From Bacteroides sp. ET71 (lineage in GTDB: Bacteria > Bacteroidota > Bacteroidia > Bacteroidales > Bacteroidaceae), in the NCBI RefSeq assembly GCF_023336905.1, contig NZ_JAMBLS010000005.1:62001-126000 (forward strand): DNA of 64,000 nucleotides, given 5' to 3'. Below, one piece after another: positions 55,168 through 60,235 of this stretch (position 1 is its first letter; every line of letters starts with the position of its first letter). The notes beneath the pieces were generated by a model. The model did no database searches. It was not told the DNA's origin and saw only the letters and a list, made by a program, of their open reading frames with translations. The position numbers and the translations under genes are program-made.

Positions 55168-55275
55168 TTGTTCCGCTGAAATGAAAAAGGACGTGAACGG
55201 GAGCCGTGCTTTTATTAAAATATGTTGTAAAACATACTTTTTGCGGGAATAATTTGCAGGTATCGCAAAAGTCCG

Positions 55276-55352
55276 TACCTTTGCAACGTGTTTTTCATGG
55301 TATTAGATTTAAGGTTAACAAAGGTTGGGCTCAGCGGAGCCCTTTTTTTATG
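55276..55352 (+). ncRNA. Small RNA candidate, copy 1 of a paralogous pair
   Basis: Promoter TTTG (55253) then 19 bp then TACCTTTG (55276). The predicted transcript starts near 55288 with a 36-nt block (55288-55323) identical to copy 2 at 58254-58289. A GGGCTC-AGCG-GAGCCC hairpin with seven T ends it at 55349. It is transcribed toward the convergent rsmE gene with no ORF of its own on this strand except M-V-L-D-L-R-L-T-K read from the shared block. The remaining 55353-55528 stretch holds no supportable gene; a 26-codon hydrophobic minus-strand frame (55374-55454) may be a gene remnant. Confidence 0.75.
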
Positions 55353-55528: not shown

Positions 55529-56227
55529 TCACTGGTTTTTCAAGTTCAGGATGTGGCAGGCCACCAATGCCGCCGTCTCTGTCCGCAATCGCGAGGGACC
55601 CAGGCTGATGGGCGTGAACCCCGCTTCTGTGGCCAGGCGGACTTCCTCTTCGCTGAAGTCGCCCTCCGGCCCTATCAGCACCAAGGCATTTTCCCCCTTG
55701 CGCACCACGTCTTTCAGCGACGGCTTTTCACCTTTGTAGCAATGGGCAATGAACTTTTGTCCCTCGAAAGGCTGTGCGATGAAGGTCTTAAAGTCCGTCA
55801 TCTCGTTCAGCCGGGGTAGACGTGCCTTGAGCGATTGCTTGATGGCCGACACCAGAATCTTGGCAATGCGTTCGGTCTTGATGACCTTGCGCTCGGAAAA
55901 ACGGCAATTCAGGAACGTCAGCTCATCCAGCCCTATCTCGGTGGCTTTCTCGGCAAACCATTCGGTACGGTCCATGTTTTTGGTGGGCGCCATGGCGATG
56001 TGCAGATGCCCGCTCCACAAAGGGGCTTGCGGTTCAACCTCCAGAATGTCTACCAGGCAGCGCTTGTGGGCCGCCAGGCTGATGCGTGCGTGGTAGAAAT
56101 GGCCGACGCCGTCGGTCAGCATGATTTCGTCGCCGGCTTGCAGGCGTAGCACGCGCAACGCATGGGCGGCTTCTTCTTCCGGCAGCTCATGGACGGACTG
56201 GATGTCAGGAGTGTAAAAAATGTGCAT
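55529..56227 (-). CDS. rsmE: 16S rRNA (uracil-1498-N3)-methyltransferase
   Basis: 232 residues. An N-terminal PUA-like barrel (about 1-75) is followed by a SPOUT knot domain with A-T-E-I-G-L-D-E, L-I-G-P-E-G-D-F-S and the end P-S-R-L-R-T-E-T-A-A-L-V. Methylates U1498 in the ribosomal decoding region using SAM. 9 bp downstream of the DUF151 gene. Confidence 0.95.
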   Translation of the reverse strand: MHIFYTPDIQSVHELPEEEAAHALRVLRLQAGDEIMLTDGVGHFYHARISLAAHKRCLVDILEVEPQAPLWSGHLHIAMAPTKNMDRTEWFAEKATEIGLDELTFLNCRFSERKVIKTERIAKILVSAIKQSLKARLPRLNEMTDFKTFIAQPFEGQKFIAHCYKGEKPSLKDVVRKGENALVLIGPEGDFSEEEVRLATEAGFTPISLGPSRLRTETAALVACHILNLKNQ

Positions 56228-56816: not shown

Positions 56817-58067
56817 TTATAAGGTCTTCTCCGGAGTGTGCTTATAGCGGAACACTACGGTAAATACCAGAGCGAGCACCAGTGCGTAGGCGGCAAAAAT
56901 CATCCAGATGGGTGTCCACTCGCGGCTGATGACCCCTCCGCCTTCGGCATAGACGGAAAACATGTCTACCACGGCTCCGCTGGCATACCCGCCCACGAAA
57001 GCGCCGATGCCGTTGGTCATCATGAAAAACAGGCCTTGTGCACTGGCACGGATGCCGGAGTGTGCCTCCATTTCGGTGAACAGCGAGCCGGACACGTTGA
57101 AGAAATCAAAAGCCATGCCGTAGACAATCATCGAGAGGATGAGCATCCATAGCCCGTCGCCCGGGTTGCCCAGTCCGAAAAGTCCGAAGCGGAATACCCA
57201 GGCAAACATGCTGATGAGCATGACGCGCTTGATGCCGAAATGACGCAAGAAGAACGGTATGGCCAGGATGAACAGCGTTTCGCTCATCTGCGAGATGGAG
57301 AGCAGTATGACGGAGTGCTTGACGCCAAACGAATCGGCATATTCGGGGATGGAAGCGAACGAGCTGAGGAACGTGTCGCCGTATGTGTTCGTAATCTGAA
57401 GGGCAGCCCCCAAGAGCATGGAGAAGAGGAAGAAGATGGCCATCTTCTTTTGCTTGAACAGCACCAGCGCGTCCAATCCGAAGGCAGAGAGCCATGTCTT
57501 CTTCTCGTTACGTTCGGGCGGGCATGGGGGCAGGGTGAATGAGTATAAGCCTAAGACGGCGGCCGAGATAGCCGCCACATACAACTGGGCAGCGCTGTAT
57601 TTGAAGCCTGTCAAGTCTACCAGCCACATGGCACAAATAAATCCCACCGTGCCCCATACGCGTATGGGGGGGAAGTCTTTCACCAAGTCGAGCTTGTATT
57701 TCTCCAGAGCGTTGTATGAAACGGTGTTGGCCAGCGAGAGTGTCGGCATGTAGGCCAGCAGGTTGAACAGCATGGCCACGTACATCTGTTCGTAAGTGCT
57801 GGCTGTCGAGGCGTAGAACAAAGCACCTGCGCCTATCAGGTGGAGCAATCCGTACAGCTTTTCGGCGTTCATCCATTTGTCGGCTATGATGCCGGTGAGG
57901 CCTGGCATGAACAGGGCGGCTATGCCCATTGTCGCGAAAATTTTACCGATTTCTCCGCCTTCGAAGTGCAGTGTGTTGTTCATGTAGCTGCCTAACGAGA
58001 TAAGCCATGCACCCCATACGAAGAATTGCAGGAATTGCATGGCGGTTAGTCTTATCTTTATGTTCAT
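56817..58067 (-). CDS. NupG-type nucleoside:H+ symporter
   Basis: 416 residues, twelve predicted helices, MFS fold of the nucleoside symporter family. Typical starts I-R-L-T-A-M-Q-F-L-Q-F-F-V-W-G-A-W (4-20) and R-V-W-G-T-V-G-F-I (about 135) are present. Imports nucleosides by proton symport. Driven by TACATTTG at 58117; the small-RNA copy 2 terminates just upstream of it on the same strand. Start of the permease-DUF151-rsmE operon. Confidence 0.9.
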   Translation of the reverse strand: MNIKIRLTAMQFLQFFVWGAWLISLGSYMNNTLHFEGGEIGKIFATMGIAALFMPGLTGIIADKWMNAEKLYGLLHLIGAGALFYASTASTYEQMYVAMLFNLLAYMPTLSLANTVSYNALEKYKLDLVKDFPPIRVWGTVGFICAMWLVDLTGFKYSAAQLYVAAISAAVLGLYSFTLPPCPPERNEKKTWLSAFGLDALVLFKQKKMAIFFLFSMLLGAALQITNTYGDTFLSSFASIPEYADSFGVKHSVILLSISQMSETLFILAIPFFLRHFGIKRVMLISMFAWVFRFGLFGLGNPGDGLWMLILSMIVYGMAFDFFNVSGSLFTEMEAHSGIRASAQGLFFMMTNGIGAFVGGYASGAVVDMFSVYAEGGGVISREWTPIWMIFAAYALVLALVFTVVFRYKHTPEKTL

Positions 58068-58116: not shown

Positions 58117-58124
58117 CAAATGTA
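58117..58124 (-). promoter_or_regulatory. -7 box of nucleoside permease
   Basis: Minus strand TACATTTG fits TAnnTTTG, 50 nt before the ATG. Confidence 0.6.
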
Positions 58125-58218
58125 CGATGTTGATACAAAAAAAACAAGTCCGGGCGGGGGAAAAAGATGGAGGGCGGGAGAAGAAGCGAAGAGCGCCGGA
58201 GGCGGAAGCGGAGGGCAT

Positions 58219-58301
58219 AAAAAAAAGAAGGGTATCTATCCCAGACACCCAATCTTTGTTAACCTTAAATCTAATACCATGAAAAACACAGTGCAAAGGT
58301 A
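58219..58301 (-). ncRNA. Small RNA candidate, copy 2 of a paralogous pair
   Basis: On the minus strand a TACCTTTG box (58294-58301) precedes a transcript beginning near 58289 with the same 36-nt block as copy 1. A GGGTGTC/GATACCC hairpin (58230-58250) ends it, followed by a T-rich run. A 14-codon frame M-V-L-D-L-R-L-T-K-I-G-C-L-G reads from its ATG. It is upstream of the permease gene but terminates before that gene's own promoter. Confidence 0.75.
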
Positions 58302-58419
58302 AGCGTTTTATGTTATGCAGCATAATAAATGAGCAAAAATCTGCTTTTATTTAACTCTTATTAAGAAGGTGGACCGCTTTTATACACTTCTTTGCAAAAT
58401 CTGCCGTGTTTGAGGCCCA

Positions 58420-59604
58420 TTATTCCACATAAAGCACCAGTCCTTTCAGGTACTCGCCCTCCGGGTGGTAGATATTGACCGGATGGTCGGCGGGTTGGGT
58501 CAACTGGTGCAGGATGCGCACGCTGCGTCCCGACAGGGCGGCTGCCGTGAAGACTGCCGTGCGGAATTGCTCTTTGCTGACGGCCTGCGAGCAGGAGAAG
58601 GTAAAGAGTATGCCTCCCGGTCGGATTTTCTCGAAAGCGCGGGCGTTGAGCTTGCGGTATCCTTGCAGGGCGTTGTGCAGGGCGTCGCGGTGTTTGGCAA
58701 AGGCGGGAGGGTCCAGCACGATGAGGTCGTAGGTCTGGGCATCCATGCGGTCGAGAAACTTGAAGGCGTCTTCGGCGAAAGCCGTATGGCGCTCGTCGCC
58801 GGGGAAGTTCAGCCCGATGTTTTTGTTGGTCAGGTCGATGGCCTTGGCCGAACTGTCTACCGAGTGTACGGACAGGGCGTTGCCGCGCATGGCGTAGACG
58901 GAGAATCCGCCGGTGTAGCAGAACATGTTCAGCACCCGTCGTCCCCGGGCATAGCGTTCCAGCAGGGCGCGGTTTTCGCGTTGGTCCACGAAGAATCCTG
59001 TCTTTTGTCCTTTCAGCCAGTCTATGTGGAACTTCAGGCCGTATTCCGTGGCGATGTTGTCGGTGCTTCCTCCGCGCAGGAATCCGTTTTCGGGGAAGAG
59101 GTCGGCTTTGTAGGGCAGGGTGGTTTCTGACTTGTAGTAGATGTTGTCCACTTCTTCCTGCATCACGTCGGCCAGGGCTTCGGCAATGGCCATGCGGTCG
59201 AGGTGCATGCCGGCTGAGTGTGCCTGCATCACGGCGGTGCGGGCGTAGATGTCTATCACCAGTCCGGGCAGGTTGTCGCCTTCGCCGTGCACCAAGCGGT
59301 AGGTGTTGTTGTCTGTCCGTCCGATGAGTCCGATGCTGCGGCGCATTTCTTTGGCGGTCTGGAGTTTGCGCCGCCAGAAGTCGGTGTTTATCTCTTCTTC
59401 CTGGCGGAAGGAGAGCACACGCACGGCGATGCTGCCTATTTGGAAATGGCCTTTGGCTATGAACTGCCGGGCGGCGGTATAGACTTCGACTACTTCGCCT
59501 TCTTCGGGCTTGCCGTCTATGTGGGCGATGGCACCGGAGAATATCCATGGGTGGAAGCGTTTGAGTGATTCTTCCTTGCCGGGTTTCAGGTAGACTTTAT
59601 ACAT
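58420..59604 (-). CDS. Class I SAM-dependent 23S rRNA cytosine methyltransferase (RlmI-like)
   Basis: 394 residues from M-Y-K-V-Y-L-K-P; an upstream ATG would add 12 unrelated residues. An N-terminal PUA domain (about 1-80) is followed by an EEHEE linker region and a Rossmann methyltransferase domain. Motif I is V-L-N-M-F-C-Y-T-G-G-F-S-V-Y, and the catalytic motif L-D-P-P-A-F is followed by F-T-F-S-C-S-Q. RlmI modifies C1962 of 23S rRNA. Followed by the exonuclease gene. Confidence 0.92.
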   Translation of the reverse strand: MYKVYLKPGKEESLKRFHPWIFSGAIAHIDGKPEEGEVVEVYTAARQFIAKGHFQIGSIAVRVLSFRQEEEINTDFWRRKLQTAKEMRRSIGLIGRTDNNTYRLVHGEGDNLPGLVIDIYARTAVMQAHSAGMHLDRMAIAEALADVMQEEVDNIYYKSETTLPYKADLFPENGFLRGGSTDNIATEYGLKFHIDWLKGQKTGFFVDQRENRALLERYARGRRVLNMFCYTGGFSVYAMRGNALSVHSVDSSAKAIDLTNKNIGLNFPGDERHTAFAEDAFKFLDRMDAQTYDLIVLDPPAFAKHRDALHNALQGYRKLNARAFEKIRPGGILFTFSCSQAVSKEQFRTAVFTAAALSGRSVRILHQLTQPADHPVNIYHPEGEYLKGLVLYVE

Positions 59605-59614
59605 ATTGATGGAG

Positions 59615-60235
59615 TCAGTTAGGGTTATCTTTGTCTGCAATTTCGAAGTCGCCTGTACGTTTCAGTTCTTGCAGGCGGTTGTAGATGTTGAGGCAGGCCC
59701 AGGCATCGGTGGCGGCATAGAGTTTCTGGGGTTCGGTCAGGGTGTCTGCTTCCCAGTTGGTGAGGCGTTGTGCCTTGGAGATTTTCTCTCCAAACAGGAT
59801 GCCGTATATTTTTTGCAGGCTTTTGTCTTCGATGCCGAAGGTGCGGACGTATTCTTGCAGCTCGATGCAGGCGTGTGCTTCGAAAGGGGCACGCTTGTGC
59901 AGCATCATGAGGTCGTCTTTCAGCGAGAGTCCTATCTTGGTGATGTTGGGGCTTTCGAGCAGGTTGATGATGGGCAGGGTGAGGCCCGTCAGGTTGAGGC
60001 GGAACAGGAAGCAGTGGTCTTCGGACGATACTTGCAGCAGGGCCACTTTGTGTGGTTTGCCTTTGGAGAAGGAGGGGCGTGTTTCGCTGTCGATGCCCAC
60101 CATCGAGCATTGCCGCAGGAAGGTGACCGCCCGTTCTGCCTCCTGCGGGGTCTGCACCACGTGAATCTTTCCCGGGAAAGAGGCTTTGGGCAGGTCTTTC
60201 AATGCTTCTTTGTCAATAGTTCTTTTTATAATCAT
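59615..60235 (-). CDS. DEDD-family 3'-5' exonuclease domain protein
   Basis: 206 residues. The first catalytic pair D-x-E is V-G-I-D-S-E-T-R-P; I-G-L-S-L-K-D-D and the Y-A-A-T-D-A-W motif give the remaining Asp and Tyr, so all four acidic positions appear present. Resembles RNase D/WRN-type exonuclease domains acting on RNA or DNA 3' ends. 10 bp upstream of the methyltransferase gene; probably one unit with DUF5063 upstream. Confidence 0.9.
   Translation of the reverse strand: MIIKRTIDKEALKDLPKASFPGKIHVVQTPQEAERAVTFLRQCSMVGIDSETRPSFSKGKPHKVALLQVSSEDHCFLFRLNLTGLTLPIINLLESPNITKIGLSLKDDLMMLHKRAPFEAHACIELQEYVRTFGIEDKSLQKIYGILFGEKISKAQRLTNWEADTLTEPQKLYAATDAWACLNIYNRLQELKRTGDFEIADKDNPN

Follow-up and report, generated by a model that had tools for sequence, protein, structure and literature searches.

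The DNA analysed here, termed the window, is a stretch of 64,000 nucleotides from Bacteroides sp. ET71 (contig NZ_JAMBLS010000005.1, positions 62,001 to 126,000). Two short units are found on its opposite strands. As a preliminary description of this DNA stated, and as is read directly in the sequence, both have the same promoter box, then 36 identical bases, GTGTTTTTCATGGTATTAGATTTAAGGTTAACAAAG, at 55288-55323 (+) and 58254-58289 (-), and then differing hairpins followed by T-runs. Past the common bases the units consist of different terminators, and their lengths are 65 and 72 nt. Counted from the -7 box on, the two units form an inverted repeat of 54 nt (94%). Neighbours with named matches, which include miaA, are housekeeping genes and as such give no sign of a known mobile element; a small gene without a convincing family match is also present. 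The features of the region are:

55276..55283, + strand, -7 box TACCTTTG of copy 1 (sequence)
55253..55256, + strand, -33 element TTTG of copy 1, 19 nt upstream of the -7 box
55288..55352, + strand, FopS sRNA copy 1 (65 nt); RF04319, 72 bits, model 1-71 of 71
55288..55323, + strand, common 36-nt 5' block of copy 1, the seed directed at susC start regions (sequence, pairing computations)
55327..55349, + strand, intrinsic terminator of copy 1; hairpin GGGCUC-AGCG-GAGCCC (55327-55342), then T-run
55529..56227, - strand, rsmE, convergent with copy 1; NF008702, 349.9 bits, cut-off 269
56817..58067, - strand, nucleoside permease (nupG-like); TIGR00889, 528.8 bits, cut-off 446.1
58117..58124, - strand, predicted own -7 box of nupG, TACATTTG
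58218..58289, - strand, FopS sRNA copy 2 (72 nt); RF04319, 78.3 bits, model 1-71 of 71
58230..58250, - strand, terminator hairpin of copy 2, with the T-run directly after it
58294..58301, - strand, -7 box TACCTTTG of copy 2 (sequence)
58420..59640, - strand, gene for an RlmI-like rRNA methyltransferase, located upstream of copy 2; the best-scoring model, NF011707, gives 291.7 bits and stays under its cut-off of 712

The start positions of both RNAs are taken from the Rfam model. Both promoters carry the canonical sigma-ABfr sequence TAnnTTTG, with a -33 TTTG in copy 1 and a dyad in its place in copy 2. With 10 occurrences of TACCTTTG in the window, where 1.24 would be expected, the box alone represents merely an ordinary Bacteroides promoter. 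Predicted folds leave 32 unpaired 5' nt in copy 2, and a weak 5' helix of copy 1 in the minimum free energy structure is mostly gone from the centroid. The folding energies of the two copies are ordinary relative to shuffles (z -1.27 and -0.52).

The two units are, with near certainty, members of the FopS sRNA family. The whole of the RF04319 (BTncRNA_FopS) covariance model is matched by both units, which score 72 and 78.3 bits (cut-off 56), and the E values for the window (1.4e-8 and 8.2e-10 for copies 1 and 2) are not those of chance matches. FopS was published in 2025 from Bacteroides thetaiotaomicron, where 14 copies and RNAs of about 65 and 70 nt are reported; the 5' seed, R1', pairs with susC start regions and translation is repressed (PMC11697453). 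According to the authors, the family is highly conserved in the Bacteroidaceae. They also report induction by bile salts, for which a transcriptional regulator is considered possible and is not named (PMC11697453). The window thus adds two members, in an unstudied species, to a kind of RNA already published.

A multi-copy family of regulatory RNAs had been proposed from the two units alone, and both comparison with published Bacteroides sRNAs and a genome search with the family model bear this out: the family is FopS, and the ET71 genome has six copies over the RF04319 cut-off, so that the block is not confined to these two places. Weak matches (L007-L010, 33.2 to 16.6 bits) are excluded from this count. 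A third copy is on the same contig (G000:C5:130327-130392), 4.3 kb beyond the window end; its terminator is the same as that of copy 1, and its seed has one extra T. Among named genomes, Candidatus Bacteroides merdipullorum is nearest (RsmE 97%), by a search that may omit records very near the window's own. Named relatives, searched at 42 of the 80 related loci found, have 5-16 FopS matches each (42/42). In an even draw of 393 genomes from the order, 88 match FopS at E <= 0.001 and represent 27 family labels; 76 have a match over the cut-off, and 77 of the 88, with 20 family labels, match at E < 1e-6. An even draw from the phylum gives matches in 7 of 395 genomes.

Some related sequences differ from typical FopS. 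A match of 58 bits at L016 1014-1097 has no TAnnTTTG box in the 50 nt upstream, and its seed, GATATAAGGTTAA, is intermediate between FopS and GibS. Nine viral contigs also contain the 25-base seed core, which agrees with a remark on a Caudovirales phage in the FopS paper (PMC11697453). These are of two types. One (L121, L123, L124, L125 and L129) has its own -7 box and a different hairpin, and in L121 the core is near portal, ParA and primase genes. The other (L122, L126, L127 and L128) has no TAnnTTTG box and a GC hairpin at the end; in L128 the core is near a primase gene and a weak terminase match. The three viral contigs scanned of the nine, L121, L122 and L128, are below the FopS cut-off.

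The promoters of both units display upstream operators that the preliminary description did not include:

55221..55236, + strand, Cur/BT4338-type operator TATGTTGTAAAACATA of copy 1; 0/14 mismatches, centre about -60
58309..58324, - strand, Cur/BT4338-type operator TATGCTGCATAACATA of copy 2; 2/14 mismatches, centre about -28, replacing the -33 element

The published Cur consensus is wwwTATGTTnTAnAACATAwww (PMC6989115; proposed in PMC3878776). The set of 95 FopS promoters examined was a chosen one: five come from this genome, 30 from the loci that scored best in the order draw and 60 from the listed matches, with own, related and distant genomes represented. A dyad with at most 2/14 mismatches is present in 46 of them against 0.41 expected. 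Mismatches of 0, 1 and 2 are found in 17, 13 and 16 promoters, where shuffles lead one to expect 0, 0.01 and 0.4, a comparison that overstates independence, the promoters being related by descent. Column conservation among promoters picked for having the dyad is biased upwards by that choice; without dyad picking, for fixed columns and the two registers pooled, the value is 0.74 bits between -36 and -20 and 0.44 bits upstream of this.

The dyads are found in two registers. Sites with three mismatches or fewer are centred at -26 to -31 in 40 of 53 cases and at -59 to -61 in 12 of 53. After addition by hand of a 96th promoter, L004, whose seed core carries an insertion, 41 promoters have the dyad near -28 and just 6 of these 41 display TTG at -33; of the 55 promoters that lack the -28 dyad, 51 have the TTG. 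The two elements largely exclude each other. Near -60, a dyad with at most two mismatches is found in 8 of the 55 promoters against 0.03 expected. The remaining 47 fall short of that mark, and the left half, ATGTTATAA, is kept near -60 in many more of the 55. Among own copies, that at G000:C5:130327-130392 has an operator near -60 with 2 mismatches, L003 has a half site alone, and in L005 and L006 the dyad is unconvincing (7 and 5 mismatches).

Orthologues of copy 2 are found beside nupG in 58 of 80 loci, and 44 of these have the dyad with two mismatches or fewer, 26 of them perfect. When the orthologues are thinned to 34, chosen regardless of the dyad, 26 have it in register (shuffles, 0.008). 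The mark is missed by 14 of the 58, of which 12 have TTG at -33 instead; eight of these 12 (L012-L015 and L017-L020) are near the window's clade.

In the ET71 genome as a whole such sites are few. Seven are found at one mismatch or fewer, against two for a reversed-pattern control, and three are perfect, the copy 1 operator being one. A 464-kb genome sample that includes the window contains five dyads with at most two mismatches, two of them these FopS operators. Of the 315 TAnnTTTG boxes in the same sample, three are accompanied by a dyad in one or other of the registers, and two of the three belong to these FopS genes. Another perfect site, at L255 1501-1750 (G000:C9:40733), lies at an activation-like distance from a -7 box; an unannotated transcript-like stretch of ~200 nt is seen there by eye, with a hairpin and a T-rich end, and is perhaps another putative Cur-controlled sRNA. 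Rfam detects no family at L255 or at L258, a second Cur-site locus of this genome; at both there is a -7 box, and a long open reading frame is not found within reach.

A candidate for the regulator itself is encoded at G000:C1:208753-209409. The protein is of the Crp family (cNMP-binding and HTH_Crp_2 domains) and has relatives of 68-84% identity in the eight other genomes searched. A dyad of the type TGTGCTnTAnAACACA is present just upstream of the gene in 9/9 loci, with three mismatches in seven and four in two, and such a site has been noted before BT4338 and its orthologues (Ravcheev et al., PMC3878776). The protein is probably Cur. In Bacteroides xylanisolvens the Crp-family gene is ~24 kb from the nupG-side FopS, a distance that would suit the near locus tags BT_4331 (the parent of FopS-14) and BT4338 if copy 2 corresponds to FopS-14. 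Cur is known to act on fusA2, and the ET71 orthologue of that gene also carries a site. By hand count it lies ~53 nt before a -7-like sequence, a spacing close to the 47 nt of copy 1.

The operator sequence and its conservation at FopS promoters are directly observed; binding by Cur, and the sign of regulation in each register, are predicted from them. Alternatively, these could be ordinary FopS genes with dyads that serve another Crp/Fnr-type regulator in place of Cur, such as a sensor of membrane or oxidative stress. Bile salts induce FopS, possibly via an unnamed factor (PMC11697453), and the ET71 genome has five cNMP-binding matches, four over the Pfam cut-off, so that a paralogue could read the dyad. 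However, the dyad is the published Cur consensus (PMC6989115), the fusA2 orthologue of this genome bears the same kind of site, and the Crp/Cur regulon as predicted includes nupG, the gene next to copy 2 (Ravcheev et al., PMC3878776). A different factor is therefore considered unlikely, and the sequence case for control of FopS by Cur is strong. Cur activates the sRNA MasB (PMC10994844), and sRNAs near Cur ChIP sites have been reported, three of them named (PMC10294740); links between Cur and sRNAs as such are thus not new. A link between Cur and FopS was not found in the literature searched, which consisted of open texts and included PMC12596196 and PMC10861873. Cur-type operators at FopS promoters look unreported.

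The presence of nupG next to copy 2 allows another interpretation, in which copy 2 would act as transcribed leader and attenuator of this gene. The two are on the same strand, copy 2 is ~150 nt upstream of nupG and its terminator is in between. A common leader with attenuator had also been suggested for the block. This fails for copy 1, as the next gene, rsmE, is convergent, and is weak for copy 2, as a separate -7 box is predicted for nupG at 58124. In loci orthologous to copy 2, a TAnnTTTG is found 70-300 nt past the FopS start in 55 of 58. The same RNA is also present in other contexts, such as copy 1 with no adjacent co-directional gene, and FopS transcripts of ~65 and 70 nt are known from B. 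thetaiotaomicron (PMC11697453). A leader function for copy 2 is accordingly quite improbable. As the site nearest nupG is here the FopS operator, the assignment of nupG to the regulon may deserve a second look.

The 5' block was proposed earlier as the targeting or protein-binding part of the RNA; a targeting part agrees with its fit to susC start regions and with the published FopS seed. Its complement reads like a susC leader and start, CTTTGTTAACCTTAAATCTAATACCATGAAAAACAC, with leader, AUG and AAA-rich codons. Against 26 susC start regions of the genome the mean duplex energy of the block is -16.7 kcal/mol, a value reached by none of 300 dinucleotide-shuffled seeds (null mean -10.8 kcal/mol); 292 other start regions give a mean of -12.4 kcal/mol. 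Rank tests on composition-corrected scores separate susC from other starts (p 2e-9), and susC is also separated from 180 AT-matched controls (p 6e-9). The start codon is inside the duplex at 20 of 26 susC targets. Of the 48 SusC matches, 29 exceed the family cut-off. Sequence was retrieved for 30 loci, and the analysis used 26: 25 that exceed the cut-off plus L159, which does not reach it. Left aside were L148-L150, whose frames are incomplete at the N terminus, and L158, in which a frame was not found. The susC start codons were chosen by eye, and the control starts are first-ATG calls on greedy open reading frames. The SusC-family frames of L148, L149 and L150 have similar beginnings and no signal peptide, and they look as if their 5' ends recombine, as in invertible susC.

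Complementarity between the FopS seed of the window and susC start regions is thus observed by computation, and repression of susC in the ET71 species is predicted from it. Two of the 26 susC starts pair no better than shuffles, and some non-SusC starts pair as well as or better than susC (up to -24.4), so that the target set is neither all susC nor susC alone. The seed has two variants. At 12 of 26 targets CAUGG is the better pairing variant by a margin above 1 kcal/mol, and nowhere does CAUAG lead by as much. Copies with CAUAG should pair best where a U precedes the start codon, and those with CAUGG should accept C or U. The variants are unevenly distributed between promoter classes: 29 of 37 CAUAG copies are on promoters with TTG at -33 and without the -28 dyad (Fisher p 2.4e-6, inflated by descent).

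Conservation of the block might also be explained mainly by binding of an RRM protein rather than by pairing with mRNA. In B. thetaiotaomicron, the RRM protein RbpB antagonises FopS action and binds FopS-10, and inversion of a 55-nt site deduced from CLIP impedes binding (PMC11697453); RbpB is a partner there and is outside the definition of the FopS RNA family. But the family is kept where no RRM_1 (PF00076) match is found: in the ET71 genome, rated 99.58% complete; in 14 of 42 named relatives, among them Bacteroides ndongoniae, Mediterranea massiliensis and Caecibacteroides pullorum; and, in the order draw, in 37 of the 88 genomes that have FopS. Those copies examined from RRM-less genomes retain an intact block, and the block fits susC start regions. 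Binding of RbpB as the main reason for conservation is thus improbable, and retention of FopS without RbpB-like proteins makes mRNA pairing the likelier reason.

The absence of RRM proteins was also analysed with a profile of seven Bacteroidota RRM proteins, which finds nothing in the ET71 genome at E up to 10; two positive controls give 1.4e-30 and 2.6e-37. Among 17 RRM-negative genomes, six yield seven partial matches (E 1.1e-5 to 0.9). None of these starts before model position 42; six lie in frames of 480-669 aa and one in a frame of 132 aa. They are read as tails of other proteins because a positive control shows the same kind beside its true ones. In the RsmE tree, 13 of 15 RRM-less rows, including the window, form one clade (support 97/89), and the other two group with the RRM-bearing L027 (89/80, inner fork 80/24). 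RRM_1 is present in 51 of the 88 FopS genomes and in 260 of 393 genomes of the draw overall. FopS and RRM_1 show no positive association: the odds ratio is <1, with a Fisher p of 0.07 when all 88 FopS genomes are counted and of 0.04 when the count is limited to the 77 stronger ones, and the genomes are not independent. A lineage that keeps FopS without the RbpB protein type looks unreported, and this RRM-less clade represents a natural experiment on the need for RbpB.

A short frame, MVLDLRLTK, had been noted as a leader peptide or chance: it is ATG-initiated and present in both window copies, yet the frame is not conserved (four of the six own-genome copies have no ATG in the block, with CATAG for CATGG), there is no stop inside the 65-nt copy 1 RNA, the copy 2 frame stops after 14 codons and sORFs were excluded by the FopS authors (PMC11697453), so that a peptide-coding function is of negligible probability, the ATG being explained by CATGG as the complement of CCATG, a target start codon.

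Together the data suggest a working model. Each FopS unit would be transcribed from its own sigma-ABfr-type promoter (TAnnTTTG) and end at its intrinsic terminator. The 5' block would pair with susC-like mRNAs and block translation initiation, as the literature shows for B. thetaiotaomicron and as is proposed here for ET71. Cur (BT4338), a Crp-like master regulator of carbohydrate use, would govern FopS transcription via a palindromic operator of 16-22 bp in one of two registers, either near -60 above an intact -33 TTTG or near -28 in place of the -33 element. The copy 1 register would be compatible with activation. That of copy 2 should exclude sigma and lead to repression, which is the simpler guess because the dimer would cover the -33 element; alternatively, promoters of this class, which have no proper -33, may depend on Cur. 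Cur would set which FopS members appear in carbon-poor and in sugar-rich cells, the FopS RNAs would then trim SusC-type importers, and in the ET71 lineage the system would have to run without an RRM-type RbpB. The model as a whole, with FopS sRNAs that pair with susC-like mRNAs and a transcription tied to Cur by a two-register operator, is considered probable.

A further hypothesis is tentative, and somewhat more likely wrong than right. FopS would represent the carbon-catabolite arm of the Cur regulon, whereby one protein in two registers activates a -60 set and represses a -28 set, the sets tend to differ in one seed base and the system runs without RbpB in the whole clade. With two registers and seed variants, a shift in carbon state would alter how much FopS is made and also the range of targets open to the pool. 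The operator names a specific regulator for RNAs previously reported with a possible unnamed one. If Cur control is true, it joins two carbohydrate systems of gut Bacteroides: Cur and the sRNAs that silence polysaccharide utilization loci.

Several known systems can be compared. MasB is an sRNA under Cur activation, but by its description it is a distinct sRNA with its own target, BT_1675 (PMC10994844). The GibS family (RF04182) has the 5' seed R1 in common with the window units; these are half its length, however, and score 41.1 and 36.6 bits against a cut-off of 115, so that membership in GibS is rejected. The Spot 42 (spf) sRNA of Escherichia coli silences secondary sugar uptake and is itself controlled by a Crp-type regulator. 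FopS would play a similar part if copy 2 is repressed by Cur, but FopS is multicopy here; to our knowledge there is no sequence relation between Spot 42 and FopS, and no Hfq. FopS of B. thetaiotaomicron is similar to the window units in the 5' seed block, a single hairpin terminator, a length of 65-72 nt, a sigma-ABfr -7 box, multiple copies and complementarity to susC start regions. The copies there number 14, as opposed to 6 over the cut-off in ET71, and RbpB is a partner there, whereas no RRM_1 protein is detectable in the ET71 genome. In addition, the ET71 promoters display Cur-type operators, whereas the whole word "Cur" has 0 occurrences in the text of the FopS paper (PMC11697453).
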